Shown: piece by piece, positions 11,101 to 49,396 of the stretch | Numbering within the stretch: position 1 is the stretch's first letter | Layout of the letters: each line of letters starts with the position of its first letter | DNA from: Halichondria panicea | Taxonomy: Eukaryota > Porifera > Demospongiae > Suberitida > Halichondriidae | Direction: 5' to 3' | Assembly (NCBI RefSeq): GCF_963675165.1 | Contig: NC_087388.1 | Location: 4,965,047 to 5,029,046, forward strand | DNA: 64,000 nt | Position numbers and translations under genes: made by a program | The notes under the pieces: model-generated | The model's database searches: none | Told to the model about the DNA's origin: nothing | Seen by the model: the letters and a program-made list of their open reading frames with translations, nothing else

Positions 11101-14100
11101 TCGGAGATTTGTAACCACTTCCATCCGGTGGTTTTCAGTATGGAAATGTACAATAGGTAAATCTCTATAAAAGTAGCAAGAACTGGTATAGTTAAGTATA
11201 AACTAAGTCATTCAGGATGGCCAGTCAACAACGTAGTTCATCACCTTCACGACAGGAGCTTAGCTTTGATGATGCCCCCCAACCGAGTTTTAGACTAACA
11301 CTTCGTCAACCAAAGCACAAGAGTCTCTGGGAGCGCATGAAAGAAGCAGCCAAGTCTCTGTCGCCTGAACACTTTTTTAAATGGATTCAGGCGGAAAAAA
11401 AGAAGATTGACGCTAAAGTTGATCGAGGTGAACAACTCACTGATGAAGACGTTGCTTTTCTCAACAAGTCTCTTGAAACACAATTAAATGAGACTATCGA
11501 CAATTTCAAGGCGCAATTCATGGAAATTGCTAAGATAGAGAAGACTGATTCTCCAGAAGTAATAAAGATGAAAAGGGAAATTCAAGAAGGTTTGATAGCT
11601 TGGCTAGAGAATCTGTTTTTCTGGATTATTACAAAACTCAAAAAGATTTTTGAGATGATAAAGGAAGCGATAGAGTGGTGTTTCGAGCAAGTGAAAGTGT
11701 TTTTCAAGAAGCTGTATTCGTTTATTATTGAATAGAGTTGGTGCTCTATGTATATAGCAGAGCTGACTGAGACTGATAGCAAGAACAATTGAAGTACGTA
11801 TGTGTATTTTGTGATTGTGTTATTAAATGTATGAAGTATCATAGTGTCTTACATGTTTACTAACTTGTATGGTCACGAGGCATTGTAGTATCTCTGTTGG
11901 GAATTGCTATCAACTACACACCTGACTACTTATACTGAGCCACAGCAAGTCCAATATAGCAAGATTTAGTGTACTAGATAGTTTGTGTGCTAGGTCTGAC
12001 AAAATGAAGGTTCTCGTGCTTGTGGTCCTGACTACTCTCCTCATAGGAGTCACCAAGGCTGCTTCTTATAAAGTGAATCAAAAGAAAGTACTCGAAACTC
12101 TTCTTCTGAACAGACTCTCGAATGAAGCATTGAAACAAGATGAGCAGGAGACAGCCATGGCTCAGAATCACCAGGCTAGTAAGGCTCTATTGGATTTGAT
12201 GAAGATGCTCAACCTGGTGGATAAGAGTGCCACTCTGCAGTCGTATTGTGCTTGCTTCAGGTCACCGTGCCCTTGTGATAACGGCCCATTTCCATGGGGA
12301 CGCTGAACAATGTATAAGCGTCTCAGATGTCTCTGTTGTAGCAACTATATAATATGCTCATGCATTGCTTGATTGACATTTTGTGCACTAAAATATATAC
12401 ACTGTATAATTATTTGCTTCATTTCTAGGAATGTGATTTGGTAATTAAGGCCCTCGCACATTTTTGTAGCACTAACCGTCATGTGTACCAATACTGCATG
12501 TAGGGCGAACAGTATTTATGGAGAAATACCCACTACCGTATTACTAGAATATTTTGCAGGTGAAAAACCTTTGCGAATGAGCCAAATCATCAGAAAATTT
12601 GACCCTTTGCGATCTAACTATTGCGTTCTGGCAAGGATCATGTGTATTTACTAGTAATAATTTAGGTTTTGCGGATTTAATTGTTGCGAATTGATCAACC
12701 CTCGCAAAGTTCGCAAATGTTTGATGCTCGCAAAACATTTTAGCTATCTGCCAATCCATGTGCATTTGTTTTCAATTTGATTAAATTGAAAAAATGATGT
12801 GGTTCAAAGAGTATAGTGTCTACGAGTACCAGCGGGAGGGTCAGAGTTCACTACACCAAAGAATATATAGCGAAGGATATAAATAAAAAATGGTCTGCAA
12901 TATAATTAGAAATTGTCTCAAAGTGATCTAACAAGGGAGCTCAAACAATAATAAAGTTTGCTATGCGATAATCTGGTTTCTTATCATCAACTATACCGTA
13001 TTACTAGAATGTTTTGCGAGCATCAAACATTTGCGAACTTTGCGATGGTGATCAATTCGCAACAATAAATCCGCAAAACCTAATATTACTAGTAAATACA
13101 CTGGATCCTTGCCAGAACGCGATCGCAAATTGTCAACTTTTCTGCTGATTTGGCTCATTTGCAAAGGGTTTTCCCCCGCACAATATTCTAGTAATACGGT
13201 ATAATTTATAGTACGGTCCCACAAATAAATTTGCAATGTGTAGGATTGGCAGGGAGAACCACCAAAAAGCGTAACTCCAACTCGTTACAATGTCATTCAC
13301 ATGTACATTTTTCGATTTATAGTTACATTTTTGCTGGTAATTTTTACAAGCTATTTCGTGGTTTTTCCGACCAAACCAATGTTGGTTTGGTAGGGTGCCC
13401 TATACATATATACAGTGTAGAGTTTTAGTTTGGTTTGTAGTGTATACCAAAAACTGTATTGTAGCTTTATAGCATTGAATTTTGAGAAACATGACTCAAT
13501 TGTGTCTGTGTCTGTTCTTGTAGCCATTTGCCATCAAGTAGAACATGTTGCATCTTCAACTGATAATTAATAGAATTCTAAATTTGATAGCAGTAAACAC
13601 GATCATTAATTTTCTTGGAGAAATGTTCTGTGCATGTGTGGGAGAGAGAATTACTGAATAGATCACATTTCAAATGCAGGATCACTTATATCTTATATCT
13701 GTGGCACACTACTATACTGTTACTCTATCCAGTCCTTCATATAAAATGTTTGCATGCACATTATAGTCTGCACCATATCGTGTGTGTAGAGACTGTTAGA
13801 CTTATATCTTATATCTGTGGCACACTATACTGTTACTCTATCCAGTCCTTCATATAAAATGTTGCATGCACATTATAGTCTGCACCATATCGTGTGTGTA
13901 GAGACTGTTAGAGCTATCAGATACTTGATAGTGAATGTAAACAGTTCTTGGGGTTGTTTGTACCTACAAAAAGAATCTCGTTTTGGCCGTAAACCTATGA
14001 CATATGCTTTGGGTGATTCTAAGTGTGTTCTTCAAATGTTGCTAACATTATTGTAGAAATACTGCTGTACTTGGGTCCAGCTAGGAGTGTTTGTGCCTCC

Positions 14101-17100
14101 TGTTGGGCAAATTAAAGTATATTTGTGTTGAGTTTGACCTTCATAAAGTTATCATAACTTTTTTTCATGCTTCAAAGTTTCATATACCATTGGATTCCTT
14201 GCGCTTCTATCTATATTATGCTGTATAGAGCTGATAAGCTCCAACCAGTTAAAAGTTAGCATTTTCCATGTAGAAGTCCCAGGCATACTTGTCCATCACA
14301 TAAAGCATAAATGAAGCCATAATTGACCAAATCCGGGGTTGAACTCAACGCAAATAGACTTTAGTATTTTGTATTGCTTGCATGGTTGACTGTATTTGTG
14401 CAGTGTGATTGTTGTGTATAACATATAGTTTAACTGTTTAGTAATCCTTGAGTGCCATGTGTATGTGTGTGTGCATGTGTATGGGTCTATAGAAACATAT
14501 CAAAAATATTATGTCAAATTTGGTTTAATTTGACATGTCAGATAGGAATATTAACCGATTAGTCGCGGTTTACGCTTTGAACCCGCGGCTATCAATATTG
14601 ACACTTCAAAGCGTCAACCGCAGCAATAATCGTATAACTATTAACGTACACTTAATGGCTTGCTCTGCATGTGACCTGAGCTGGCTGGCATGTTTGGCTT
14701 AATGGAATCTAATTATCATTTCTTCCTAGTACTGCGTGATCCTAAATTGTGTGTTGTTCTTTCCTAGTATACTCAGTATTCAAGCCTAAAGCTGTGGCTA
14801 TTTATTATTTGTGCCTTAACCCTTTCTCAGCTGCCTTGAGGCGGCATTGCAACTGATAAACTTCGCTGTGCACGCTATAGGTAGATCTGTTAATAATTAT
14901 GCTGACACGAGGTAGGGTTCGATTAGAATTGTCGAAAGAATAGTGATAATAATTATAACTATAAGATGTTGGTAGTGCAACCTCAGAGAGGGTCCATGGA
15001 GAGCACAGCTATACAGTGAGAATATTGTAATGCTTGTGGGATCATTGAGCCAAAGGACAGTGAATGGGATCATAGCTAGCTACGTTTTCAGAAGTGCCAC
15101 AAAAGTATATGTGGGCCATGCATGTTCCTGGACCTTGTAAGTATCATTTGCTTGTAGCCTTGATAGCTTTAGTATAGGTTTACGTTTGGTATAGGCTAGT
15201 TGTCTTATGTGTAGGTGAAAAAAACATTTCCCGGGAAAAGAGCGTGTGCTTGATAGTACCTCGTGCCTTCATACAATATTGTTTGATTAGTTGGGGTGGT
15301 CAGTTGCTAGGTTACGATGGTGTCATAGCACATCTGGAGTCTGGGTTACTTACATGCACTCTACTTTGCAAGTCTTTCGTTTGCAATCAAAAGAATACAG
15401 TATGTGATAAGCTGTTTTGAAGTTCTTATCATCAATTGTAGTAGCTCAAATGTTTCTGAGAATGAAAGTGTTGCATCGTAATGTCTTTACCTGGCCATGA
15501 TCATTTCTTGGAGGTATTTTCTTGTACAGTCTCAGATATCAAATGTGTTTACATTATAGATCTCTTCTCACCCTTGACTGTCGTCGATACACGTGATTGT
15601 CTTGTAGTTTGAGTACCTGGTTGTGTATCTAACTGGTTAATACTCCTCTATAGTGAACACCACTTGCACATGCGCATAAAATGCCCTGCTATTAAACTTG
15701 TACATTTGTAAGAACTATGAATATAGTATCATTAGTGTACTGGCCCTGCCCACATAGTCTTGTAATTGGCATTCAGAGTAGTGCATACTGTCAGTGACGC
15801 CAAACTATTGAACCGTGACGTACCATGAGCTGCTGTTTACATGTTTTATAATGATATTCATAGCACAATTTGTACAAGTGGATGCAATTGTTGCCAATGG
15901 TCTTGTTCTGTAACATGAGAGTGACATGTGTGGGGCTCAATGTGTTTATAATTATCATTTCTTCCTTGTACTGATCCTAAATTGTTCTTTGCGTATTCAA
16001 GCGTATATAAAGCTACAGTTATTCTCTGTGCTTTAACAAATATTGATATCACGATGAAGACTCTTATGCTGCTCGTGTCGATGGTCCTGATAGGACTTGC
16101 AAGTGCTGCTCCTCATGAAGGACAGGAGACCAGAGAAGCAATGCTGAAGAAAGCCGTCTCAAGCTTGATTGAAAAAGCTGAGGATTATTTGCTGGAACAA
16201 TCAGCTGTAGAAGATGACAACGAAGCAATGTTGGAGAGATACGCAAGCTTGATTGAAAAAGCTAAGCATCGACAAGAATATCCGCTGGAAGAAACTGTAG
16301 AAGATGACAACAATGCAATGTTGGAGAGATATGCAAGCTTGATTGAAAAAGCTAAGCATCGACAAGAATATCCGCTGGAAGAAACTGTAGAAGATGACAA
16401 CGATGCAATGTTGGAGAGATGCACAAGCTTGATTGAAAAAGCTAAGCATCGACAAGAATATCCGCTGGAAGAAACTGTAGAAGATGACAACGATGCAATG
16501 TTGGAGAGATATGCAAGCTTGATTGAAAAAGCTAAGCATCGACAAGAATATCCGCTGGAAGAAACTGTAGAAGATGACAACGATGCAATGTTGGAGAGAT
16601 ACGCAAGCTTGACTGAAAAAGCTAAGCATCGACAAGAATATCCGCTGGAAGAAACTGTAGAAGATGACAACGATGCAATGTTGGAGAGATACGCAAGCTT
16701 GACTGAAAAAGCTATGCATCGACAAGAATATCCGCTGGAAGAAACTGTAGAAGATGACAACGATGCAATGTTGGAGAGATACGCAAGCTTGATTGAAAAA
16801 GCTAAGCATCGACAAGAATATCCGCTGGAAGAAACTATAGAAGAAGATAACGAAGCAATGTTAGGGAGACGTATCTCAAGCTTGTATCCGTTGGAAGAAG
16901 TGGGAGAACAAAAAGACAATAAAGAATCTGACCAGGATGCAAAAACAGTTGCTCTTATAAAGATGATTGAAAAACTAATGGACGCTAAACAGCTTGCAAA
17001 GGCCGAGGAGAGGTGCATGTGTTATGTGGCCCCCTGTCCTCGCGGCTGTCTCGACATGACCAACAAGAAGTGATTGAGATAGATTCCTGAAATGGCAGTT

Positions 17101-20100
17101 GAACTTTAATGAAACTTGTATTGTGTAGAGTTTTAGTTTGGTTTGTAGTGTATACCAAAAACTGTATTGTAGCTTCTTTATAGCATTGATTTTGTGAAGA
17201 AACGTGTCTGTTTTTGTAACCATGATCATTTCTTGACAAATCTCTTCAGTTCTTAGTGGGGAAGGGCCGGTTATTGTGTAAGTGTTCTCACATCTTCTTC
17301 TCAGCCTATAAATGTAATGTCTGTAACAGACAAATTGTGAAAAGATACTCCTAGTCAATCGGGGTTAGACGTTCAAAAAAATTCTAGCCATGTAAACTTA
17401 CGTTTAGGTGATCTAATTCAAGTATGACTGTTATACTAATTGCAATCAAACTATAATGTATACTTCATTTTTATGGAGTTAGTCGATCATTATAGTTGAA
17501 TTCATTATGTGTAGTGAAGTGGTGTGGAAATTGTCAGGCTCATGTGTGCTGTGTAGAAAACCAATGTGTTCAGTTTGAGAGTTAAAATACTACATACCGC
17601 CAGTTAGTTGCTCTTATATTGAAGGCTATAATTATGCATGGGTGCCTATAATTATACAGAAAACAATCAAGAAAACGTGGCTAGAAGCCTATAGAAGCGG
17701 TTAGTTTTCGTCGCATTGCAACAGTTTAGCAGTTACATGCAGGGAACAGACACACAGTCACAGCTTTATCGTATTCCTCGTGCGGCTACGCCTCGAGCAT
17801 AATAATCAGTTAGTCATGTAGTACTAGGAACTCTATTGTGCATGGTCATGCATGGGTATACACCATGTATATACTTTAATTCTTATCCTTGGTGTTAAAT
17901 CTGTGTAGGTAAGTGTGTCGTAAAGTGGTGTGGATTTTGTCAGGCTTGTGTGTGTGTGTTGTGCTAAGTGTTCAGTAAAACCAATGTGTGCAGTTGGTTA
18001 GGATCCTGTGCATACGATCAAGTGCATGCATAAGTAACGTAGTGAGGGTACTACAAGTGGCTGAGGGCTTCTAAATCACATGGACACCGACAAAACAGTG
18101 TCTAGATACCATATAGTGCTGCGTATGCGCAAACCTTGCCCTCAGGCTTACAATTACTTGACAATGGGATACTAGGTATACTAAGTCCCATAGTATACCT
18201 GCTCTGGAGCACTTTGAGAACCATGAGAATGCAGAGAACGCATTATTATCGCAACATAGTATACAGTAATATTATATGCATAGTCAGCATATTTAGTGAC
18301 ATTTACACAAAGTAATAACCCACTTTTCCCATGTACCTCCCATGTACTGTCCATGTAGATCTTATCAACTAGTGTCTAATAGTCATTATAATGACTAATG
18401 GCTTTATTAGTAGGAATGCATACAATTTGTTGGACTCTATACACTTGTAACAGTTACACGATGTGGACATAATTGTTATAGACACTGTTTAGGAAGTTTC
18501 TAGAATCCCTATAGTTGTAGTATATCCCAACGTAGTGAGGGCAGGTTTGATAGAACACTACTTTTAGCCAATCAGTTTGCAAGATTTGTGGCTAACACGA
18601 TCTTAAGTACAGTTAGAATGCAGTTTTCCGTGTGTCAGTCCGTCACTAATTGCTTAATGTGATAGAGTCCCTCACATTCCATATGGTTGGTTGGTCACAC
18701 ACTTACTTTATTAGTAGAAATGTGATCTGTAGAACTATCTACATGTAGTACTGTATAGATCAGAGGCCGCGGCTACTAAATGTTTCATTTTGCTGGAAGA
18801 GGAGGCTATACAATTCGAGAGTCCACTGTTCAAGAGCAGAGTTTATTAGCCCCAGCTAATTCAACAAACCTTTAGTTTGTCTTTTTACTCGAACTCTGCC
18901 ATGAGAACGTTTTTTGAAAGTACTAACAAACTACTATCGTAGAATATATAATTATGTGCACTATAGCTTTTCAGCTAACTAGCGTAAAGCTAATTTATAA
19001 GTTTATTTAAACTTTTTGCGAACAGATGGTGCTATAGCTTTCAAAATTAGCCATTACTTGAGAAAGAAGCTTTAGTTCGTAAATCCATGAAAAATCGCAA
19101 GAGAACATGGCTAGAAGCTTATACAAACTGTTAGTTATCGTCAGATTGCAACCATGCATTGAGCAGTTACTTCTGGAACAGACACACACACAGTCATAAC
19201 AGCTTTACCCTATTCCTTATGCGGCTATATGTCTCGAGGCATAACAATAGTTTGTGGCTTAGCTAGACTCGTTAGGCTACATGCTAGTCACATGAGACTA
19301 CCTGCTACTGACAATCACTGTGCTTGTACGACATCTACAGTGACTCCATCTACTAGTGATTCTGCCTCTTGTAAATGTTGATGTATCAAACAGTTTTAGA
19401 ATTGGTTGCTATATATCCTCTGTATACGACTACAACTCAAGATGAAGTGGTTGAGTGTCCTTGCTCTGTGTGCTGCTCTCTTCATTGCAGCCACACATGC
19501 CAGCCATCTCCAAGATGAAGAGGGAATGATGGATCGTGCTGCTGAAGAAAGACTCTTGCGAATTCTACTTAGCAACAAAATGGATGCTGAAAATGAAAAT
19601 GAAATCGATCTAGTTGACAAAGAAGCTGCTGTAAACAGAGGCACTGTCACAAGGAAACTCGGCACAGCTCAGAACAAAGCCAGCTCTCAGTACGCGTGCT
19701 CCTGCGGTTGCTGCGGTAGGAATTCTTGGCTACCTTGCAACTGTCAATGGTGGCAGAAGTGATGTACTCAAGTACTGTCAGGAATAAAAAGATCAACAAT
19801 TATAGTGTAAACAATTCATCAGTGATTTATCGTTAGTTGCATATAGCTATGTTATACAGGGATCTGTATTGCTACACTGTGTGTGTACACAGCTTGTGTT
19901 AAATAAGATCATCAATGTGCGTGCTCGTAGAATTAAAGTGCTGTGAAAAATGGTGCATGTGTTTTACAATACAATTATACTGTGTAAATGGGCTTGGAAA
20001 AGTGACTTTTCCGAGCCTTTTTGGTCACTTGTGAGGCTAGCCTCAATTCCAGGCCGCATTACAACACAGCCTGGTACTAAGAGTGCATAAGAAGAAAAGA

Positions 20101-23100: not shown

Positions 23101-26100
23101 AAACGTTTATGAACGGTACAGCTTATCCATAGCATGAAGCCGTTCTATGTAGCACAGTCATATAGATACATAATACCAAGTCCAGCAATGTCCTTCCTAT
23201 GTACTGCTGTTAGACTACATGCTAGTTACATGAGACTACCTGATACTAACAATCACTATGCTTGTACAACATGTACAGTGATCTTGTAATGTTGTTGTAC
23301 CATATTTGAAACAGTTTTAGAATTGGTTTCTATCCTCCGTAACGTCTACGACTACAACTCAAGATGAATTGGTTGAGTGTCCTTGCTCTGTGTGCTGCTC
23401 TCTTTATTGCAGCCACACATGCCAGCTAGCTGCAAGATGTCGAGGGAATGATGGATCGTGCTACTGAAGAAAACTCTTGCGAATTTTACTTGACAACGAA
23501 GTGGATGCTGAAAACGAAATCGATCTAGCTGACGAAGAAGTTGCTGTGAACAAAGGCACTGTCGCAAGGAAACTTAGCACAGCTCAGAACAAGGCCTGCT
23601 CTCAGTGCTTTTGTATTAGGCAACCTTGCCGCTGTCCCAGCTTTCCCAGATTGCCTAGAATTCGTAGATTTAATTGGCGGAAGTGATGTACTTTATCATG
23701 AAGTACTGTCAGGAATAAGAAGATGGAACAATTATAGCTATAGAAATTGTTGAGAACAATTCAGTGATTTATTGTTAGGATATGTATTGCTACGCTGTAT
23801 GTGTGTACTATAAGCCACAGGCATGGCTAAAACTAGTCTATAGAAGGATTACATTTATAGTCAGCATGCTCATTACCTGTCTTGACTGCCGCTTTACATT
23901 GAAATTGTGAAATTGATCACTGGTCAATGTTGATCATGCTAAAAGTAAGCTCTAAATGGTCAACTCAGCTACTATATGTGACGGGCTCTGGGAAAACAGA
24001 CTAATTGGCTGGCGTAAGCTATAATTTATATACCAGATGATAGAGCAAAGTGTACACATACCTCGTTTCATGCCTGAGTTATGCGCGTTGGAAACTCGAA
24101 GTTGTAAAACAGCAGTATTGAGAAACGCCCACTCAAAGATTGCTAAATTGGGGAAAGTAAGGTAATGGTGGCTGCTTAGACAAAGCGCTTTGGTGGAAAG
24201 AGTTGGATTCAGGGCATCAGATTTTGCAGAGAGGTAGTAGTAGAAAGACTGTATATAAGGAAAAAAATGTATGAGATTATATACACTGTAGTCTATAAAT
24301 CTGGCTATTGCTCAATACCAATATCTGCTCCAATTGGTCTGTTTTCCCAGAGCCTGTCACATATCACCAAACAAGGAATAGCCCTTAATACGAAGTTTTG
24401 TATTAGGTCCCCTTGCCGCTGTTCCAGCTATCCCAGATTGCCTAGAATTCGTAGATTTCCTATGAGATTTTGGCAGAAATTATGTACTTTGTACTGTGAG
24501 GAATAAGAAGATGAAACAATTATAGCTATAGACAATATTATTAACAATTCAGTGATTTATTGTTATAGTTGTAGGGATCTTTATTGCTACACTCTGTGTA
24601 TGCACAGCTGGCATTAATTATAAGATCGTTGTAATTTATGTTTTCATCGAATTAGAGTCTCTGAAAATGGTGTGTCTCAAATTATAGTTAAGGGTTGTTA
24701 CTAGATAGAACAGTAATAGGGATCAAAAACAAAAATGTTCGCGTGAAACACTCTGTATTATAGGGCATGGCTAAAACTATAATTATTATTTTTATGGTCA
24801 GCATGCATGCTCATATTTCCTGTCTGACTGCCATACAATGTGCTGTACATTGAAATAGTGAAATTGATCACTATTCAGTGTTGATTATACTAAAAAGTAA
24901 AGAGAACCTAGCTCTAAATGGTCGACTCAGCTACTATCACCAAGCAAATAAAAATCCTATACAAGAAGTAATATGAAGTCGTGGGAGGTCACGGCCCGTG
25001 ATGTGTTTAAAAGTATACACTATATTACACTGCAAACGTTTATAAACAGTACAGCTTATCCATAGCATGAAGCCATTCTATGTAGCACTTAGATACATAA
25101 TAACCAAGTCTTTGCTGTTTTGGCTTCACAGCAGGGAAAGAGAAAGTTGACATACAGTAGTTCAAGTTAAAATTTGAAAAACAGAGCAAAGAAAACAGAC
25201 TTAGAGCTTGTCAGTGGTGTAAACTTACTTCTCTATATAGAGTAATAAATCCCAGTCCCTGAATGATCGCTAGTGGATAGGAGAGCTATAGAATATAACT
25301 ACAGAACAATCAACCAGAAAATATAACGCGGAGTGTTTCAACCGTTTACACAGGAAGGCATGGTCGTTTCCAATCCCCTTTCTTTTATATCTATATGTTG
25401 TCATGGTATAGTGCATGTATATTAGCATACTTTTTTTGGCAATTGCCAAGATACAAGAATAGCAAAAAGCTAATACTTACATTAATTATGAAAGCATACT
25501 AAGTACAGAAGGATCATTACCTGAGGCACGCGTGGGCGGCCACAGGTATAGTAGTCTGTTTGTTTGTTTGTGATAGCCTTTTCTACTCACCTGGATGGCA
25601 CAGCACTGTGTTTACAGCATGGATAACCTTCACACAACAAGATCTCGGTTTAAATAGTGGCAGATTTTGATGTTAAAGCTTCTTTGTCGAGCAAAAGCTA
25701 AGAAGCTTGAACTTGCACGTTGGCAGCTAGCTAGCTACACGTGGCCTTGACTATGTATTTGCAGCTGAAGTGATCTGTACCAGGAACAATTGAATAGGGT
25801 CAAAATAGAATTATAACTGGGTTGGTTATTGACTGACTCTGGATCGATCATATACTCGAACTCCAGCCTGGCAGGAGCCATACTTCTCTAAGTCTAAGAC
25901 TCCAGGCTTGTTTGCTGTGACCCCAGTCCACAGTGCATGTACCACTCAATGTGTCAGCATGCCTCCAGTCTGGTTTAGTTTTATTGCTCTTGAGTTGCTG
26001 TGCTAGTCATATACATGCTACGCATATGCACTGCATTATGGTTTCATGTCACCAGCCGAGGGTTTGCACTTTAGTGCTCTAGTAAGTATAGTTCTAAGTA

Positions 26101-29100
26101 TTCTAGTGGCTCAATTATGATGGTTGGTTCGGTATGTATATTGACGCTTATCCGATTTATCCTCAATGCTATAGGTATACCACATACCCTTCCTATGTAC
26201 TGCTGTTAGGCTACATGCTAGTCACATGAGACTGCATGCTAGTTACATGAGACTACATGCTAGTCACATGATACTACCTGCTACTGACAATCACTGTGCT
26301 TGTACGACATCTACAGTGACTCCATCTACTAGTGATTCTGCGTCTTGTAATGTCGATGGTATCATTTTTCTATAAAAGAAACAGTTTTAGAATTGATTTC
26401 TGTATCTTTAGTATATACATACGTCTACGACTATACAACTCAAGATGAAGTGGTTGAGTGTCCTTGCTCTGTGTGCTGCTCTCTTCATTGCAGCCACACA
26501 CTCCAACCAGCTCCAAGATGAAGAGGGAATGATGGATGAAGCAGATGAAGAAATGATTCTGCAGATACTTCTTGCCGACCAAGCCAATGCTGAAAATGAC
26601 GAGGAAATTGAACATGCTGATGAAGAAGCTGCTGCTGTATACAGAGGAGGAAGGATAAACTCAGCTCGTGATAAAGCCAATTCCGCTCAGAGCTGCACTT
26701 GCCACTGTCACGGTCCTACTACTATTACTCGTCGTCGTCGTTGGCAGAAGGCCAATGCCAAATCTCAGTGCGATAATTGCTGTCACACCACCACTACCAC
26801 TACAACTACCACTAGAACGACCCGCACTCGTTTCCGCTGGGTGGTTTGAGGCAGTACTGTCAGGATCAAAAGATTAACAATTAAAGACGTTGTATATACA
26901 AACAATTTAGTGAAGTACCTATTGTTAGTTGCAGTGATCTGTATATTGCTATACACTTGTATGATCACGAGAATGAATGTTCTCATATAATTGTATGATT
27001 GGGATAGCAATGAGTATATAATTTTACAGGTATATAATAGTTAGTCAGTTGGCTTGCAGTATAATTATAGTAACTGGTTTTGATGCAGTCTTGTAATTAT
27101 TCCATTCACCCTCAATACCTACTTCCTTATTTACTGCTGTTGGTTGTGTGCATAGGCTCAGTCAGCAACAGTCAACAATAGTTTGTAACCTAGCTAGAGT
27201 CACAATACAAGACATTAGCGCACACTGACAGCAGAGAATTTGATCAAAAAATCGGGACATCATACCGTATATATAGTGGATAATTTTTGTGGGTATAAAA
27301 AAGTGCTCAACTCAAAAATGGTGCTTTTCGTTGTTTGAGCTTCATTTCCTGTACTGCATTGCATGTGTTCTGATAAACCACAACACCAACTTTTTTGGAG
27401 GTCAGTTTGCATGCCCACGAAAATTACCTGCTGATACGGTACGTTACCATGCAGACTCAGTTCTGTTTTGATGCTTGTTTTGATGGCATGCTGATGAATC
27501 AATACTATAGCCCTGTATACATGAGACTACCTGTTACTGACATGTCACTGTGCTTGTACAACATCTACAGTGACTCCATACACCTGCATACTATATCATG
27601 GATGCCAAATTATGTAACAACATTTCCATAAATCATAATTAGGTACTTAATTTCAGTTTTGATCTGTGTACAACAACGTATACTATTTAGTATCAGTTTC
27701 CAACTCAAGGAGACAACTCAAGATGAAGTGGTTGAGTGTCCTTGCTCTGTGTGCTGCTCTCTTCATTGCAGCCACACATGCCAACCATATCCAAATGATC
27801 GATCATGCTGCTGAAGAAAAGATTCTGCAGATGCTTCTTGCCGACCAAAGGGATACTGAGGAACTTGAACAAGCTAATGAAGAAACTGCTGCTGTATACA
27901 AAGGAAGGTTAAGTGCAGCTCGTGACAAAGCTAACGTACAGTGCGTTTGCCACTGTATTAGTAAATGGAAGTGGAAGAAGGCCAGCAAAGCTCAGGGCAA
28001 TGCTAGAGCTCAGTGCTTTGGATGCTGTTCTGGTAGCGGCGGTTGGTTGATTTGATGTACCTTATCAAGTACTGTCGGGATCAAAAGATGAACAGTTAAA
28101 GATGTAGTTATAGACGTTGTATATTATATATACAATTTAGTGATGTACATAATTTATTGTTAGTTGCAGTGATCTGTATTATTGCTACAATGTATGGCTA
28201 GTACTAATCACAAGATCATGAAAATGCATAGAACTAGAGTATTGGATAGCATTGAGTACATACAGGTGATCATTGGGCTTGTAGTAAACTATAGTGACTC
28301 CGTTTGCAAGTGGCCAAATGTAAATATTCCATTCATTCAATATCATTCTATTTTCATAGTTTCCTATGCTTGTAACTTAGCTATGCCTCCTAGTTACACC
28401 TATGTTACGTGTATATAATGCATACCGCACCGAGTTTCAAATGCAGCATTCTTTCGATTGCAAATTTGTCAGCTTTTGCAAAAGAATTGCAGAGAGGGCA
28501 TGCATGCATGCACCTGCAATACAGTGTAATGTGCAATTGATTTAATACTTAGTGAATTTCAACAAGCGACGCATTTTTTAATCAGGAAAACGTGATGTGT
28601 CGTTGTTTAACCTGAGTGCATAGAGTTGCTCACTGAAAATGACCAACTCGCTAATCTATTAACTTACTCGCTACAAGGTATCAAGCTTAAAAATCACGGC
28701 ATTGTTTTACATTACCAGTTCTGTTCTGCTGACATCTTATCCTAATTATGATTAGTGTATACCTGCTACTACATAGAACTACCTGCTAGTGACACATCAC
28801 TTCGCTTGTACGACTTCTACAGTGACTCCATCTACACTTGCTATTGTGTTCACAAACACCATTAATTTTATAATTTATACTGTACGTTTGTATCAGTTTT
28901 CATCTGTCTCTACGATCAACGTTATCAGTTTCATCTCAAGAAGACAACTCAAGATGAAGTGGTTGAGTGTCCTTGCTCTGTGTGCTGCTCTCTTCATTGC
29001 AGCCACACACGCCAGCCATCTCCAAGATAAAGAGGGAATAATGGATCGTGCTGGCAAAGATAAAGCCTTGATGCGATTACTATCGAAGCTGCTCACTAAG

Positions 29101-32057
29101 AAATCTGTGGTTAGGCTTAATGAGCAAGCAAGGGATGTTGACGATGAGGAGACTGCCATAAACAAAGGCACTGTTGCAAAGAACCTCCGCCTCGAAGATG
29201 CTCAGAAAAGTGACCAAGCCAACTCCCAGTGGTGGTGGGTGCGACGTACTGGTTGCCACTGTGCCATTCCACCTTGCCGATGTGCTGGAAAGTGAATAGT
29301 ATAGTCATGCAGTAATAGCCTGCCAAACTGATAGTCTGTGTGTGCTAACTTGTTTACAATAATGATCATCAAGTGATGTAGTGTCATGTGTGTGCTACCT
29401 GTATCAGTGAAGTCCATGCATGTATCATGTTATTAAATTTTATTCTGCCGCTAATCCCAATAGCGAGTACACGTAATTAATTTGTTAATTAGATCCCAGT
29501 CTCTTCCGTAATACAAAACTGGAACACTAACTGTACCGTAGATCTAACTGTTTGCTCTATGCTTACGAGCTGTTTTTGAACCTGTCATAATAATTATTAT
29601 GGGCTTGTGGGCGTATTATTGAGGTAGGAAATACCTCTGCAATACAGTTCCTGCTCTGGCTGGGGGGGAGGGGGAGGGGGGGGGGGGCTGGAGTTGTACA
29701 GTTGTTGCTTCTATATAGGAATGTTATATTATTTGTCCATACCCACTCGACCCATACACAGTGTCACACACACACACATTCTACACGCAGGTGATCAGTA
29801 AGAGCAGTGAGGTCGCTGAAGACACTGCTGTGGAGGAAAAGTATCTTATAGCCACTAGCGAGCAGCCATTGTGTGCACTGCACAGGGACGAGTGGTTGGA
29901 CCCCAAGGAACTGCCACTAAAATATGTGGGTGTGTCCACGTGTTTCCGACAGGAAGTGGGGTCGCACGGACGAGATACTCGTGGGATATTCAGGGTTCAT
30001 CAATTTGAGAAGGTAATTCCAGTTGCATACGCATGTAGAGTTAACCATCCTTACCAGGTGTATGTGTTGTATGCGTATGTAGAGTTAGCCACTCCTTACC
30101 AGGTGTATGTGTTGTATGCGCATGTAGAGTTGACCATCCTTACCAGGTGTATGTGCTGTATGCGCATGTAGAGTTAGTCATTCCTTACCAGGTGTATGTG
30201 TTGTATGCGCATGTAGAGTTAACCATCCTTACCAGGTGTATGTGTTGTATGCGCATGTAGAGTTAGCCATCCTTACCAGATGTATACCTTCACCAAATTT
30301 TCTAGCCCAGCCAAGTTAGCTGCCCTCAATACAATTACAAATTGCGGTTTTTGGTTTGCATACTGGAGATTGCAGAATCTTTGCAACACATGAATAGAAG
30401 TGTGTAGCACTGTGGTTCCTTATATGGGAAATGCTCCTAGTAAAACAGACCACAGTGTGTACATAAAATCCATATAAGGAACGCGTAACGCTCTACGCTT
30501 TTACTGGTGTGTTGCAAAGATTCTGCAAACTCCAGTAAACAATAACAATGCTAATAATAATGGCAAGACACATATTGGTGCGACATACAGATTGTTAGCG
30601 GGGCTCTCAAGTTAAGTAATTTAGGTTGTAATAGCGTATGAGTGTGAGTGTGTGGGCTACAACATATCATTGTTGTAGAATGGTATAATTATATAACGGG
30701 TGTACTAGCTGTGCTCTCTGTGTTTTGATAGGTGGAGCAGTTCTGTCTGGCTAGTCCCCATGACGATGCCTCTTGGACACTGATGGACGAGATGATTGGG
30801 AATGCAGAGGAGTTCTATCAGATGCTCAAGATTCCATACAGAGTTGTCAACATTGTTTCTGGTAAATTATTGGGTTTAAGTTGATAGTGAAGTGTATTAT
30901 TTCACGTAATCGTTACTCTTTTTGTAATTTTGTGGCTATCTGGTCTTTGGTAAATTTATCCAAGAAACTGTGATACAGTAAGAGTTTAGTCTCCAATTAT
31001 TATCGATTAACGTTATGGCTGTTGCTGTTAGTTTGTTTTGTTGAAATAACAGCAAGCAAATTGTACCAATATTAGTCAGACAGCCCTCTATATACTAGGA
31101 CTTTAAGCTGTGATTGACCTTTCACCCTTGCAGGAGAGCTAAACAATGCAGCTGCTAAGAAGCTGGACTTGGAGGCGTGGTTTCCTGGCTCGGGGGCGTT
31201 CCGTGAGTTAGTCTCGTGCTCCAACTGCACTGACTACCAGTCGAGAAGGCTGCAGATCAGATACGGACAGACTAAGAAGATGAATGCTCAGGTGTGTGTG
31301 GGAGTGGAGTGGGAGTGGAGTGAAGTTGTTTTATTGGCCATAACCTTGATGGATCCAATTTCAGTGACTTTCTGGTAGTTTTATGTGAGCTTTTAGATAA
31401 GGTATCAATTATTTTCAGGCCCGATTTTGACAAAAGCGAGGGCTGTAAGTAAGTAAGCACAAAATTGGGTGAACATCGGTGAAATTGAAATTATGATACA
31501 CCCACCGTACACGTACCGTTTGATTATTATTGCTAACAGAGTGCAACACTCCCCCCCCCCCCCCCCCCACCCATTGCAGCCCGAGTATATTCACATGCTG
31601 AATGCAACCATGTGTGCCACTACCCGTGCCATCTGTGTTATCCTGGAGAACTATCAGACAGAGGAGGGGGTGCAGGTCCCTGAGGCACTCAAACCTTTCA
31701 TGCCCCCAGGTATGGATCGTGTACGTGCGTATGTTTTGTAGTACTTATGCTTTTGTAGGTCGAGGTCGGTTTTTTTTAAAGGGTAGGCGCATGGTCATAG
31801 TAGTTTGCAGTGGCTTTAGTACAGCTAAGCAGTTTTTGTATCTATTGTAAATTTGTGATTGTACTCGTTGTTTTGCTGGTCTAACAATAGCTTATTCTGT
31901 GTACTTTCAATAATCACCATTAATTATCACACTCATTTTTGTTGTTGTGTTTTTTTCTGCAGGACTAGAAGAGCTGATAAAGTTTGTGAAGCCAGCTCCT
32001 ATTGAGGAGGTGGCTAGCAAGAAGAAAGCAAAGGCTAGCGGTGCAGGAAAGAAATGA
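3261..32057 (+). CDS. SARS1: Cytosolic seryl-tRNA synthetase, 10 exons
   Basis: Charges tRNA-Ser (and tRNA-Sec) with serine in the cytosol. Exons: 3261-3396, 4251-4405, 5193-5351, 6165-6305, 6701-6856, 29791-30012, 30732-30861, 31134-31291, 31580-31709, 31963-32057; 1482 nt, 493 aa, in frame at every junction. The N-terminus [15 protein letters not shown], the coiled-coil tRNA-binding arm (exons 2-3) and the class II core all match the eukaryotic family. Motif 1 lies in exon 5 ([20 protein letters not shown]), motif 2 in exon 6 ([19 protein letters not shown]) and motif 3 in exon 9 ([20 protein letters not shown]). The C-terminal tail is lysine-rich and about 20 residues shorter than in vertebrates. 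A candidate AATAAA lies about 10 nt after the stop. Intron 5 (6857-29790, 22.9 kb) hosts a nest of other genes on the same strand; the other introns are 0.3-1.9 kb. Confidence 0.97.
5528..6041. mobile_element. MITE in SARS intron 3
   Basis: The two ends are inverted copies: TACCGTAGAAACTGGATTAT at 5528 and its reverse complement ending at 6041, followed inward on both sides by GCGC/CATGCGC text. About 514 bp. The 106-codon open frame inside it (5687-6007) has no coding character and is treated as chance. Confidence 0.8.
6880..9800. repeat. Repeated direct duplications at start of SARS intron 5
   Basis: A segment containing TTTGAAATGGTTGTGTGTAC occurs at about 6892 and again at about 7708. 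The text CATCTGTCTAAACTATGGCT/ACATAGTTTCTTGGAGATTT recurs at about 7110, 7940 and 9116. A further block (CTCCATAGTGG...CTGTCAGTAGGT) recurs at about 8546 and 9738. Together these describe two to three diverged direct copies of a unit of roughly 0.8-1.2 kb. A short MITE with GCGGGTATATT ends sits at about 8681-8868. No gene is supported; the small open frames here are copies of each other through repetition. Confidence 0.7.
10030..10380. repeat. Dispersed repeat family copy 1
   Basis: Contains AGCCATAACTCGAGAAAGAA, then GAACGTGGCTAGAAGCCTAT, and ends GAGGCATAACAATG. Related copies lie at about 17640-17815, 19010-19250, 39480-39835 and 46709-47310. It is non-coding and may be a non-autonomous element; the most complete copy (46709-47310) has short inverted ends. 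Confidence 0.6.
10765..10955. repeat. CAACCTTG-rich degenerate minisatellite
   Basis: Short degenerate units built on ACCTTGTTGCAACC and CAACCTTG repeat across this stretch in both orientations. The open frame reading through it is explained by the repetition. Confidence 0.5.
11166..11172 (+). promoter_or_regulatory. TATA box of the 172-aa gene
   Basis: TATAAAA lies 51 bp before the start codon at 11217, a spacing that leaves a very short 5' leader. The same CTATAAAAG string is found before two of the secreted-peptide genes. Confidence 0.6.
11217..11735 (+). CDS. Intronless 172-aa protein, amphipathic helical C-terminus, unknown
   Basis: I do not recognise this protein. It has no signal peptide. 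Residues 1-40 are Ser/Arg/Gln-rich and probably disordered. Residues about 40-110 are charged helix with many Lys and Glu ([18 protein letters not shown]). The last 50 residues alternate Lys with Trp, Phe, Ile and Leu ([20 protein letters not shown], then [17 protein letters not shown]) and would form strongly amphipathic or membrane-active helices. A TATA box sits 51 bp upstream and an ATTAAA lies at about 11822. It is the first of the genes nested in SARS intron 5, on the same strand, and lies between two inverted repeat arms. Function is unknown; membrane interaction is inferred only from the helix pattern. Confidence 0.7.
   Translation: MASQQRSSSPSRQELSFDDAPQPSFRLTLRQPKHKSLWERMKEAAKSLSPEHFFKWIQAEKKKIDAKVDRGEQLTDEDVAFLNKSLETQLNETIDNFKAQFMEIAKIEKTDSPEVIKMKREIQEGLIAWLENLFFWIITKLKKIFEMIKEAIEWCFEQVKVFFKKLYSFIIE
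12004..12306 (+). CDS. Secreted Cys-rich prepropeptide, MKVLVL type, copy A
   Basis: A 100-aa precursor. Start chosen at 12004 because it opens a clear signal peptide ([20 protein letters not shown]); the frame is open further upstream only by chance. Residues about 21-78 are a Lys/Glu/Gln-rich helical propeptide. The tail after SATLQ is [21 protein letters not shown] minus its first residue, holding the framework C-x-C-x3-P-C-x-C. The final Gly-Arg would, if processed as in animal neuropeptides and venoms, give a C-terminal Trp-amide. Its leader is almost identical to the gene at 20494 while the tail differs. Homology between the two loci starts about 8 nt before the ATG and stops about 10 nt after the stop. 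An AG directly upstream leaves room for a spliced 5' leader. Role unknown; a secreted defence or signalling peptide is inferred. Confidence 0.8.
   Translation: MKVLVLVVLTTLLIGVTKAASYKVNQKKVLETLLLNRLSNEALKQDEQETAMAQNHQASKALLDLMKMLNLVDKSATLQSYCACFRSPCPCDNGPFPWGR
12534..12745. mobile_element. MITE, ACCGTATTACTAGAAT type, copy 1
   Basis: Begins TACCGTATTACTAGAATATT and carries the same interior (TTTGCGA-rich, AATAATTTAGGTTTTGCGG) as the copy at 12993-13202 but in the opposite orientation. Its right end has decayed. Confidence 0.7.
12993..13202. mobile_element. MITE, ACCGTATTACTAGAAT type, copy 2
   Basis: A 210-bp element whose ends are exact inverted copies (ATACCGTATTACTAGAAT at 12993-13010 and its complement at 13185-13202). 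Confidence 0.85.
13415..14830 (+). other. Relic copies of the 16054 gene's flanks; no intact gene
   Basis: The stretch 13415-13530 matches the 3' flank of the 16054-17073 gene (17118-17222): both contain TTTTAGTTTGGTTTGTAGTG and ACCAAAAACTGTATTGTAGC. The stretch at about 14708-14825 matches that gene's promoter region (15945-16035), including TTATCATTTCTTCCT and GATCCTAAATTG, but the TATATAA element is not preserved. No precursor frame lies between or after them. Separately, 13683-13798 and 13801-13912 are a near-identical direct duplication of about 115 bp. I read this as the remains of at least one lost paralogue. Confidence 0.6.
14831..16003. other. Non-coding stretch before the repeat-propeptide gene
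   Basis: No gene supported. The final 60 bp form the promoter of the gene at 16054. Confidence 0.5.
16004..16010 (+). promoter_or_regulatory. TATA box of the repeat-propeptide gene
   Basis: TATATAA lies 50 bp before the start codon at 16054, consistent with a short leader and with an intronless gene using its own promoter inside the SARS intron. Confidence 0.6.
16054..17073 (+). CDS. Secreted prepropeptide with seven 30-aa acidic repeats and Cys-rich tail
   Basis: A 339-aa precursor. Start chosen at 16054, 50 bp after a TATA box and opening a signal peptide ([19 protein letters not shown]); an earlier in-frame ATG at 15982 lies upstream of the TATA box. After about 30 residues come seven perfect-length 30-aa units (16228-16857), each with the sequence features [12 protein letters not shown], then [10 protein letters not shown], then an EDDND acidic stretch, flanked by degenerate units. 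The tail is [20 protein letters not shown], with framework C-x-C-x3-P-C-x3-C. There are no dibasic sites between units, so release of repeat peptides is not obvious; the array more likely acts as an expanded acidic propeptide. Same plan as the neighbouring peptide genes but a distinct leader. I know of no named family. Confidence 0.8.
   Translation: MKTLMLLVSMVLIGLASAAPHEGQETREAMLKKAVSSLIEKAEDYLLEQSAVEDDNEAMLERYASLIEKAKHRQEYPLEETVEDDNNAMLERYASLIEKAKHRQEYPLEETVEDDNDAMLERCTSLIEKAKHRQEYPLEETVEDDNDAMLERYASLIEKAKHRQEYPLEETVEDDNDAMLERYASLTEKAKHRQEYPLEETVEDDNDAMLERYASLTEKAMHRQEYPLEETVEDDNDAMLERYASLIEKAKHRQEYPLEETIEEDNEAMLGRRISSLYPLEEVGEQKDNKESDQDAKTVALIKMIEKLMDAKQLAKAEERCMCYVAPCPRGCLDMTNKK
16228..16857 (+). 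repeat. 90-bp coding tandem repeat, 7 units
   Basis: Seven in-frame 90-bp units with only scattered substitutions between them (for example Ile/Thr in SLI/TEKA, and one AMHR for AKHR). Such homogeneity implies recent expansion or ongoing conversion. Long open frames on the opposite strand are by-products of the repeat. Confidence 0.95.
17074..19270. other. Non-coding stretch with dispersed repeat copies
   Basis: The first 150 bp are the 3' flank of the gene ending at 17073. Copies of the dispersed repeat containing AACGTGGCTAGAAGCCTAT lie at about 17660-17815 and, more diverged, 19010-19250. The block between them holds short duplications (GTGTTCAGT...ACCAATGTGTG at about 17565 and 17970) but no gene. 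Confidence 0.5.
19271..19441 (+). promoter_or_regulatory. Conserved MKWLSV-type promoter module, TATA segment missing
   Basis: About 170 bp shared with the upstream regions at 22258-22426, 23208-23363 and 26207-26444, and partly at 27520 and 28770. Landmarks are CTACATGCTAGTCACATGAG, GCTTGTACGACATCTACAGT and CAGTTTTAGAATTG just before CAACTCAAGATG. Compared with the 22427 and 26445 genes it lacks the short stretch with TTCTATAAAAG, so this copy has no TATA box at the usual place. Confidence 0.65.
19442..19762 (+). CDS. Secreted Cys-rich prepropeptide, MKWLSV type, 106 aa
   Basis: Start at 19442 opens the signal peptide [20 protein letters not shown] shared by all members of this type. It is followed by an acidic propeptide ([12 protein letters not shown], later [14 protein letters not shown]) and the linker [17 protein letters not shown]. 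The tail [20 protein letters not shown], then WQK, has seven cysteines and three tryptophans. It keeps a Pro-Cys-x-Cys ending but is richer in Cys than its neighbours. The conserved Gln just before the tail may become pyroglutamate after cleavage (inference). A GTACT/AGTAC mini-hairpin follows the stop and an AATAAA lies at about 19782. The promoter copy lacks the TATA segment. Confidence 0.8.
   Translation: MKWLSVLALCAALFIAATHASHLQDEEGMMDRAAEERLLRILLSNKMDAENENEIDLVDKEAAVNRGTVTRKLGTAQNKASSQYACSCGCCGRNSWLPCNCQWWQK
20494..20805 (+). CDS. Secreted Cys-rich prepropeptide, MKVLVL type, copy B
   Basis: A 103-aa precursor, paralogue of the gene at 12004. Signal peptide plus propeptide differ by only about five nucleotides in 240, while the tail ([20 protein letters not shown], then GR) has changed at many positions but kept C-x-C-x3-P-C-x-C and the terminal Gly-Arg. 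The start at 20494 matches copy A; homology begins about 8 nt upstream of it and ends soon after the stop, so the duplicated block is nearly just the coding region. The sequence directly upstream (TTATTGTAG) could be a splice acceptor, giving a shared upstream leader exon, but I could not identify one. Function unknown; the conserved leader with a changing tail resembles venom and antimicrobial peptide families. Confidence 0.8.
   Translation: MKVLVLVVLTTLLIGVTKAASYKVNQKKVLETLLLNRLSNEALKQDEQETVMAQNHQASKALLNLMKMLNLVDKSATLQSYCVCVTSPCPCDTGVFPSFPNGR
20906..22257. other. Non-coding stretch with two repeat elements
   Basis: A copy of the dispersed family starts at about 21120 with AATGAAAGCACCGCGGGTGC and runs to about 21410; it matches the left part of 46709-47310. 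A second element, about 21428-21765, has inverted ends with CATAGCCAGG at the left and CCTGGCTATG at the right. A G-run lies at about 22122-22138. No gene. Confidence 0.55.
22258..22426 (+). promoter_or_regulatory. MKWLSV-type promoter module with TATA box
   Basis: Contains the shared upstream landmarks and TATAAAA at 22364-22370, about 57 bp before the start codon. The same arrangement occurs before the 26445 gene (TATAAAA at about 26371). Confidence 0.65.
22427..22741 (+). CDS. Secreted Cys-rich prepropeptide, MKWLSV type, 104 aa
   Basis: Signal peptide as in the 19442 gene with Val for Ala in one place (LFIVATNA), an acidic propeptide ([16 protein letters not shown]) and the linker [11 protein letters not shown]. 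The tail [20 protein letters not shown], then WEK, shows C-x-C-x3-P-C-x-C followed by a strongly cationic Arg/aromatic end, the composition expected of a membrane-active antimicrobial peptide kept silent by an acidic propeptide (inference). The shared promoter has a TATA box. GTACTT at 22743 and AAGTAC at 22756 form a small hairpin just after the stop. The segment downstream (about 22900-23190) is a partial transposable element that also follows the next two gene copies. Confidence 0.82.
   Translation: MKWLSVLALCAALFIVATNASQLQDEEGMMDRAAEEKLLRILLGNKVDAENEIDLADEEAAVNRGTVTRKLGTVQNKASSQCFCIRQPCRCSSYPRFRIRRWEK
23364..23686 (+). pseudogene. Broken MKWLSV-type peptide gene
   Basis: A paralogue of the 22427 gene with the same promoter module and leader, but the codon after the signal peptide's HAS is TAG (23427-23429), and one A is lost in the GAAAAACTC run at about 23468, shifting the frame. 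The downstream half is still open ([16 protein letters not shown]) and ends in an intact-looking tail, [20 protein letters not shown] then RFNWRK, with an extra Cys in ACSQ. Two independent lesions indicate a pseudogene. Its promoter also lacks the TATAAAA segment (23300-23320). Confidence 0.85.
23978..24360. mobile_element. 383-bp MITE with ATAT target duplication
   Basis: The left end GTGACGGGCTCTGGGAAAAC and the right end (reverse complement GTGACAGGCTCTGGGAAAAC) match at about 29 of 31 positions. ATAT flanks both sides (23974-23977, 24361-24364). The related repeat at 22995-23030 shows the uninterrupted site (CAGCTACTATATCACCAAAC), so this is a documented insertion. Confidence 0.9.
24396..24506 (+). 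pseudogene. Orphan tail fragment of a MKWLSV-type gene
   Basis: Only the Cys-rich tail survives: [20 protein letters not shown], then FPMRFWQK. It is joined upstream directly to transposable-element sequence (CCCTTAATACGAAG), with no leader or propeptide. The old stop codon has changed so the frame runs on to 24506. The 3' flank still matches the family. This is a recombination relic. Confidence 0.8.
24690..25400. mobile_element. Non-autonomous element, family of 35175-35940
   Basis: Its interior matches 35175-35940 in reverse orientation, including CATAGCATGAAGCC and TCGCTAGTGGATAGGAGAGC, and it ends with the degenerate terminal text CGTTTCCAATCCCCTTTCTT (from about 25369). Partial copies follow the peptide genes at about 22900-23190 and 23850-24395, so the duplicated unit appears to have been gene plus element. 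Confidence 0.7.
25401..26206. other. Non-coding; nothing recognised
   Basis: No coding region, no clear repeat ends. It precedes the promoter module of the 26445 gene, in which the CTACATGCTAGTCACATGAG element is repeated three times (26211-26278). Confidence 0.4.
26445..26849 (+). CDS. Secreted Cys-rich prepropeptide with two Cys clusters and Thr tail, 134 aa
   Basis: MKWLSV-type signal peptide, very acidic propeptide ([13 protein letters not shown], later [15 protein letters not shown]), then a two-part tail. The first part is [20 protein letters not shown] and the second is QCDNCCH followed by a run of nine Thr and [11 protein letters not shown]. The Cys pattern C-x-C-H-C, basic spacer, Q-C-x2-C-C is shared with the 27723 gene, defining a sub-group. 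The Thr run is encoded by ACC/ACT/ACA triplets and may be a replication-slippage expansion. The KAN/KSQ junction may be a second cleavage site (inference). A TATA box lies at 26371 in the shared promoter module. The most cationic and longest MKWLSV-type member. Confidence 0.8.
   Translation: MKWLSVLALCAALFIAATHSNQLQDEEGMMDEADEEMILQILLADQANAENDEEIEHADEEAAAVYRGGRINSARDKANSAQSCTCHCHGPTTITRRRRWQKANAKSQCDNCCHTTTTTTTTTRTTRTRFRWVV
27723..28055 (+). CDS. Secreted Cys-rich prepropeptide with two Cys clusters, 110 aa
   Basis: MKWLSV-type signal peptide ending THA, a shorter acidic propeptide (missing the DEEGMM segment), then [18 protein letters not shown], a short spacer and [14 protein letters not shown]. 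This is the same two-cluster framework as the 26445 gene, with a Trp/Lys-rich middle in place of the Arg run and a Gly-rich hydrophobic end in place of the Thr run. Upstream, only part of the shared promoter module is kept (GAGACTACCTGTTACTGACA at about 27522). The GTACCTTATCAAGTACTGTC 3' element follows the stop. An intact, plausible functional member. Confidence 0.8.
   Translation: MKWLSVLALCAALFIAATHANHIQMIDHAAEEKILQMLLADQRDTEELEQANEETAAVYKGRLSAARDKANVQCVCHCISKWKWKKASKAQGNARAQCFGCCSGSGGWLI
28954..29295 (+). CDS. Secreted Cys-rich prepropeptide, MKWLSV type, 113 aa
   Basis: Signal peptide identical to the 19442 gene; the propeptide is more basic and rewritten in the middle ([20 protein letters not shown]) but returns to the family text in [16 protein letters not shown]. 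The tail [20 protein letters not shown], then K, keeps C-x-C-x3-P-C-x-C after an unusual triple Trp. The Gly-Lys end is a possible amidation signal. The promoter is partly conserved (CGACTTCTACAGTGACTCCA at about 28811). It is the last nested gene, about 500 bp before SARS exon 6. The GTACTT 3' element is not evident here. Confidence 0.8.
   Translation: MKWLSVLALCAALFIAATHASHLQDKEGIMDRAGKDKALMRLLSKLLTKKSVVRLNEQARDVDDEETAINKGTVAKNLRLEDAQKSDQANSQWWWVRRTGCHCAIPPCRCAGK
30020..30275 (+). repeat. Minisatellite of about 44 bp, about 6 units
   Basis: Lies in SARS intron 6 starting within 10 bp of the exon 6 donor. Units contain GTATGTGTTGTATGCGCATG and CCTTACCAG. Because it abuts the splice donor it could affect splicing if length-variable (inference). 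Confidence 0.9.
30361..30537. mobile_element. 177-bp MITE in SARS intron 6
   Basis: Inverted ends: TACTGGAGATTGCAGAATCT at 30361 and the complement of TACTGGAGTTTGCAGAATCT ending at 30537, continuing inward with TTGCAACACA. Confidence 0.85.

Positions 32058-40003: not shown

Positions 40004-49396
<9,393 letters not shown>

Follow-up and report, generated by a model that had tools for sequence, protein, structure and literature searches.

Near-identical leader DNA in a nested array of secreted-type peptide genes within a seryl-tRNA synthetase intron of the sponge Halichondria panicea

The window, a stretch of 64,000 nucleotides from Halichondria panicea (C12:4965047-5029046, where C12 is contig NC_087388.1, and C1 and C13 are other contigs of the assembly), contains the gene for cytosolic seryl-tRNA synthetase (SerRS), as identified by a PDB match to its joined exons (E 4.8e-181). 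Coordinates without a contig name are those of the window, and peptide genes are named by their first base. This was the only cytosolic SerRS gene found, and a 58-residue query from exon 6 returned one genome match, so that SerRS is seemingly single copy. Introns 1-4 measure 853, 812, 813 and 396 bp, versus 22,933 bp for intron 5; the three gaps between exon matches that follow measure 0.72, 0.26 and 0.29 kb. Intron 5 holds one gene for a 172-residue protein together with eight prepropeptide genes assigned to families A, B and C, all on the plus strand (Table 1). All nine open reading frames run uninterrupted from ATG to stop, which bears out an earlier sequence-only reading that had placed nine intact host-strand genes in a single 22.9-kb intron. 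Each of the eight peptide ORFs occupies a single exon, making this a nested array of secreted-type genes in the intron of an unrelated gene. The 5' part of the intron (6885-9783, within its first ~3 kb) is a decayed repeat present in several copies, beginning just past exon 5. Elsewhere in the window, exons resembling immunoglobulin domains by eye lie immediately 3' of SerRS (from 32497 on, plus strand), a eukaryotic LSU rRNA fragment occupies 33468-33561 on the minus strand (54.5 bits versus a gathering score of 50), and a perfect CA repeat of 165 units spans 41067-41397.

Table 1 Features of SerRS intron 5 and its flanking exons, in window coordinates.
Feature	Coordinates	Strand	Remarks
SerRS exon 5	6702..6856	+	tblastn and PDB match; donor GTTAGT at 6857
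SerRS intron 5, host of the array	6857..29789	+	22,933 bp; GT at 6857, AG ending at 29789
172-residue protein	11217..11735	+	lacks a hydrophobic leader; outside the peptide plan; database matches and a C1 paralogue
Family A prepropeptide	12004..12306	+	21-residue tail
Family C prepropeptide	16054..17073	+	30-residue repeats in pro-region (16205-16869); 19-residue tail
Gene 19442, near-identical leader tract (-10 to +63)	19432..19504	+	tract shared by all five intact B genes
Family B prepropeptide	19442..19762	+	
Family A prepropeptide, copy 2	20494..20805	+	
Family B prepropeptide	22427..22741	+	
Broken family B copy	23364..23687	+	stop codon at leader end; reading frame not kept; 3' limit approximate
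Leaderless family B tail fragment	24396..24486	+	limits approximate
Family B prepropeptide, recombinant	26445..26849	+	breakpoint about 26533-26538
Family B prepropeptide, two cores	27723..28055	+	
Family B prepropeptide	28954..29295	+	21-residue tail
SerRS exon 6	29790..30012	+	3' limit approximate; protein single copy in genome

A genome-wide census extended this inventory. The broken B copy, the B tail fragment, a ninth peptide gene outside SerRS and a family D on C13 had not been listed in the earlier reading. Family B amounts to five intact genes, one broken copy and one tail fragment; protein queries gave seven matches at E<=0.001 (on six copies) and leader-DNA queries six copies, all within intron 5. 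Family A consists of two genes, both again in intron 5 (E<=0.1). Gene 16054 of family C carries 7.4 copies of a 90-bp (30-residue) repeat in its pro-region, and a relative, P0045, whose tail differs by one residue, is 171 residues long versus 339. The ninth peptide gene is a second member of family C at C12:4951562-4952107, outside both intron and window and 16 kb 5' of the SerRS ATG, and matches an NCBI entry for an uncharacterized protein of H. panicea (LOC135345298). Two decayed copies of SerRS exon 2 lie on each side of it (four in C12:4946420-4954932, one of them with exon 1). When DNA from intron 1 and exon 2 was used as the query, eight of 54 genome matches were the SerRS gene and its decayed copies, while the other 46 were short and fell on a simple-repeat stretch. 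Family D, found with a C relative as query, comprises two open copies (at 4872025 and 4876407 of C13) and three with stops; beside these genes lies a pair of ORFs that by eye resemble NACHT and LRR domains (NLR-type; C13:4880181-4882847). The proposal of an array inside the SerRS intron thus stands for eight peptide genes, and the upstream C gene and family D place further members elsewhere.

Signals for independent expression were assessed against random intron positions. Strict TATA boxes occur 20-150 bp 5' of five of the nine ORFs (background 15.6% of 2000 random positions; binomial 0.007), in agreement with the earlier view that several of the genes possess their own, and poly(A) hexamers occur within 300 bp 3' of five of nine (background 24.7%; binomial 0.046). 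Each signal is missing from the remaining four, and both enrichments are weak because the paralogues are not independent. These boxes also bear on whether the peptide ORFs could instead depend on the SerRS promoter and serve as alternative 3' exons in transcripts of that gene. The location of all the ORFs on the host strand of one intron would suit such an arrangement; the boxes themselves do not, nor do the C gene lying 5' of SerRS and the presence of family D on a different contig, and we regard it as very unlikely.

The 172-residue protein stands apart. By eye it has no hydrophobic leader, and a leader-plus-cysteine scan of 30 kb around its C1 paralogue (62% identity, dN 0.24, dS 0.67) detected no peptide genes. 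Database searches returned ten matches at 52-98% identity (E<=0.1, its own protein included), and its sequence indicates a conserved protein of uncharacterised function that shares intron 5. An inverted repeat with 126-bp arms, 95% alike, flanks the ORF (9784-9909 and 11814-11939), its right arm stopping 65 bp 5' of gene 12004. A transposon carrying the 172-residue ORF between these repeats was considered and rejected: the arms have no other copy in the genome, and hence reveal no element family.

The peptides share a common layout, with signal peptides judged from hydrophobicity and by eye. A hydrophobic leader is followed by an acidic pro-region and a cysteine-rich tail, so that the prepropeptide plan previously described for this locus holds for the peptides and does not extend to the 172-residue protein. 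Family B was summarised from 26 proteins (P0001-P0026) out of 34 matches, the last eight having been left aside as short or broken (six), a relative of 28954 (one), or long with a different N-terminus (one). The pro-region is net negative in 26/26 and the tail net positive in 24/26 (not basic in the other two); a glutamine directly precedes the core in 24 of these proteins. A second core follows after a spacer (11 residues in one example) in 10/26, and the pattern CxC...PCxC is likewise found in 10/26. Tails of A and C have a common CxCxxxPCP core, and that of family D has two cysteines. Column entropy across 23 aligned B proteins rises from 0.15 bits in the signal to 1.01 in the pro-region and 1.37 in the tail. 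Pfam gave no match above curated cut-offs for the 172-residue protein and seven of the eight peptides; scores above cut-off for the eighth (16054) came from the unrelated models Tricorn_C1, Death_MADD and DNase_NucA_NucB, and were judged an effect of its repeats. A search of PDB with three tails found no relatives for two of them and, for the third, three chains of arginine methyltransferases with E no better than 0.34. The absence of a described family, suggested earlier from the leaders, accordingly extends to searches of open-licence literature, Pfam and PDB. In the main text of one account of the H. panicea immune repertoire, a term search showed "antimicrobial peptide", "defensin" and "effector" to be absent (PMC8242945).

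The families also appear to be related to one another. Profile comparison links A and B at 94% over most of their length and A and C at 91% over 27 columns of the signal part, and joins B and C at only 30%. The leaders of A, B and C, earlier taken as three separate kinds, therefore probably belong to one superfamily, with the direct B-C link remaining weak. Family D is a probable fourth member on this sequence evidence, its profile scores (72% with C, 41% with A) being weak in both cases.

A database search gave 34 matches for B and 11 for A and C combined (both at E<=1, own window proteins counted). Since relatives exist in other assemblies, the A, B, C and 172-residue ORFs can be taken as real genes on grounds of conservation; for the last, the excess of dS over dN against its C1 paralogue also speaks against a chance ORF. 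It might be supposed that misassembly produced the array, or that its members are dead relics, given the repeats and decayed SerRS pieces of the region, the broken B copy and the fragment. We find this highly improbable: the eight peptide ORFs are open, clusters that include window peptides 12004, 22427, 26445 and 27723 are reported for a contig of 26,112 bases, and members of A, B and C are reported for another of 1,656,667 bases. The latter is given for ten B clusters (P0002, P0008, P0010, P0011, P0016, P0021, P0023, P0024, P0029 and P0033, of which P0029 and P0033 look broken), one A cluster (P0038) and one C cluster (P0045). Ten B clusters there, set against five intact genes here, suggest that individuals or species differ in copy number.

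We then compared the DNA of the five intact B genes. From -10 to +63 relative to the ATG, identity is 93-99% in 10/10 pairs; in the same pairs, identity from -160 to -11 ranges from 44 to 90%, and from +64 to +160 it ranges from 54 to 93%. Synonymous sites in the leader are also near-identical, with signal-codon dS of 0-0.07 in 10/10 pairs, while in the pro-region dS is 0.31-1.65 in nine pairs, the close pair 19442/22427 being the exception at 0.05. For six distant pairs the leader effect is significant (Fisher p from 0.009 to 5e-6, calculated from rounded counts and with pairs that share sequences). Family A behaves similarly, with dS of 0.06 across leader and pro-region versus 0.75 in the tail (p 0.0003). 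Here similarity ends 15 bp 5' of the ATG, and within the ORF conservation extends over the first 282 bases. In families C (p 0.056) and D (p 0.063, all differences in leader versus flanks) the effect has the same direction and falls short of significance.

Two processes could account for this pattern: leader-centred exchange between copies, by recombination or gene conversion, or selection acting on the nucleotides themselves, whether for codon choice, for mRNA structure or as a regulatory element. A block conserved over -10 to +63 in all ten B pairs is what a fixed constraint would give. The extent of similarity nevertheless varies with the pair, reaching about +90 and far upstream between 26445 and 19442, and continuing through the pro-region between 19442 and 22427, and the family A block runs well beyond the leader. 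Gene 26445 is, moreover, a mosaic. It resembles 19442 from upstream to about +90 and 27723 thereafter, with informative sites divided 32 to 8 in favour of 19442 on the left and 25 to 74 in favour of 27723 on the right, a partition matched by 0/200,000 permutations. This gene was chosen after 60 ordered triples had been scanned; 11 of them gave 0/4000, and some of those other than its own may reflect uncertain tail alignment. From this pattern we conclude that 26445 arose by recombination, with the junction immediately 3' of the leader. The broken B copy matches 28954 at 90 of 100 bases in the leader, with 51% identity before and 56% after, again contrary to a constraint on function, though its death may have been recent. 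Taken together, these data make leader-centred recombination or gene conversion, in our judgement, clearly likelier than selection on nucleotides, which we consider unlikely.

The tails present a different question, that of what drives their diversity. Positive selection as the cause is unsupported in family A, in which tail dN/dS is about 0.26, and rapid adaptive tail change is for this reason not demonstrated. In family B, homogenisation of the leader confounds tail divergence as a measure of adaptive change. Among A proteins, P0039-P0041 have common leader residues at positions 5, 7, 26 and 27 that neither window gene shares, whereas FRS and VTS/ITS tails are present in the one group as well as the other. 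Because the leader residues separate the groups and the tail variants do not, A leaders seem to have been homogenised within each group, and the tails seem older than the groups.

The explanation we favour, and hold to be reasonably probable, is that the locus encodes secreted, disulfide-rich defence peptides, some with two cores, from genes with their own promoters, which lie mostly in SerRS intron 5 and have spread by duplication and leader-centred recombination. Each gene would be transcribed from its own promoter, and the leader would direct the product into the secretory pathway, with the acidic pro-region offsetting the mostly basic, cysteine-rich tail. Cleavage beside the conserved glutamine would then free a short disulfide-bonded peptide from each precursor, or two from some, and these might act in chemical or antimicrobial defence. 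Duplication, together with leader-centred recombination or gene conversion, would place new tails behind a standard leader. SerRS may tolerate the array if splicing outcompetes the poly(A) signals within it; with hexamers within 300 bp of five ORFs, splicing must prevail for SerRS to be made. A defence or venom-like role is consistent with the precursor plan, the diversity of tails and the copy number, and is proposed because of them. Internal signals, or structural or adhesive products, are an alternative to which we give a minor share of belief: neuropeptide-like precursors can likewise be described as a leader plus acidic spacer with short, repeated cores, and the family A tails look constrained, but the B tails differ strongly among paralogues and copy number appears to vary between assemblies. 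As a more speculative and rather improbable extension, an essential, single-copy gene might offer in its intron a protected workshop, in which leader DNA acts as an anchor for recombination and new cores are joined behind it in single-exon genes. The array would be held in place because exchanges that leave it and damage SerRS are purged, and the decayed exon copies would be scars of such events.

Nested arrays of secreted-protein genes are already known. In Drosophila, ng1-4 and Sgs4 lie within an intron of dunce, and matching signal-peptide sequences, it has been suggested, can trigger rearrangements (PMC10835880). As described there, several related small secreted-protein genes occupy an intron of an unrelated enzyme gene, as at the sponge locus, but they encode glue proteins rather than cysteine-rich peptides and their host is a phosphodiesterase gene; the likeness drawn here is one of arrangement. 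The sponge locus adds a natural case in which splicing of an essential gene must bridge nine ORFs arrayed on the same strand. Secreted defence peptides with variable gene content have a counterpart, by description only, in the CRP-I antimicrobial-type peptide genes of Mytilus, for which large presence/absence variation between individuals is reported (PMC10138031).

Ribosomal sponge peptides are only beginning to be recognised, and in this widespread model species the locus would supply a genomic home to a new group of disulfide peptides of secreted type. The asteropsins and stryphnines are sponge-encoded knottins with signal, intermediate and mature regions, and most asteropsins carry an N-terminal pyroglutamate (PMC13418204); by analogy, a cut before the conserved glutamine would give the same terminus here. 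Unlike the six-cysteine pattern C-x6-C ... CC ... C ... C given in that report, the first two cysteines are spaced by one residue in 25/26 B tails and by two in the other. Halichondamide A comes from Halichondria bowerbanki, a member of the same genus, and is likewise a short disulfide peptide, having two disulfides and ordinary amino acids; a ribosomal sponge precursor was proposed and, in that account, not identified (PMC11382151). Its undecapeptide core is CC-x5-CC, a spacing seen by eye in 0/26 B tails, and a pattern search for it in this genome gave one match with three mismatches, at chance level, so that we rejected it as a product encoded here.

A parallel in precursor plan is offered by the conotoxins, to which Pfam indicated no homology. 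Conotoxin superfamilies combine a conserved signal, a less conserved pro-region and a diverse cysteine-rich mature part, with dS climbing from the signal exon to the mature exon in a gradient tied to their separation (PMC3862624). The entropy profile of family B follows the same course, from a conserved leader to a diverse cysteine-rich end. By contrast with the separate exons described there, all eight sponge peptides are encoded in one uninterrupted ORF. Separate exons therefore cannot be the general cause of a conotoxin-type gradient, because the same synonymous rise occurs here inside single exons. In their predicted form, these peptide genes resemble the cone-snail toxin pattern of a near-frozen leader and diverging peptide ends, contained in one exon, and the locus is well suited to direct testing of leader-centred gene conversion.
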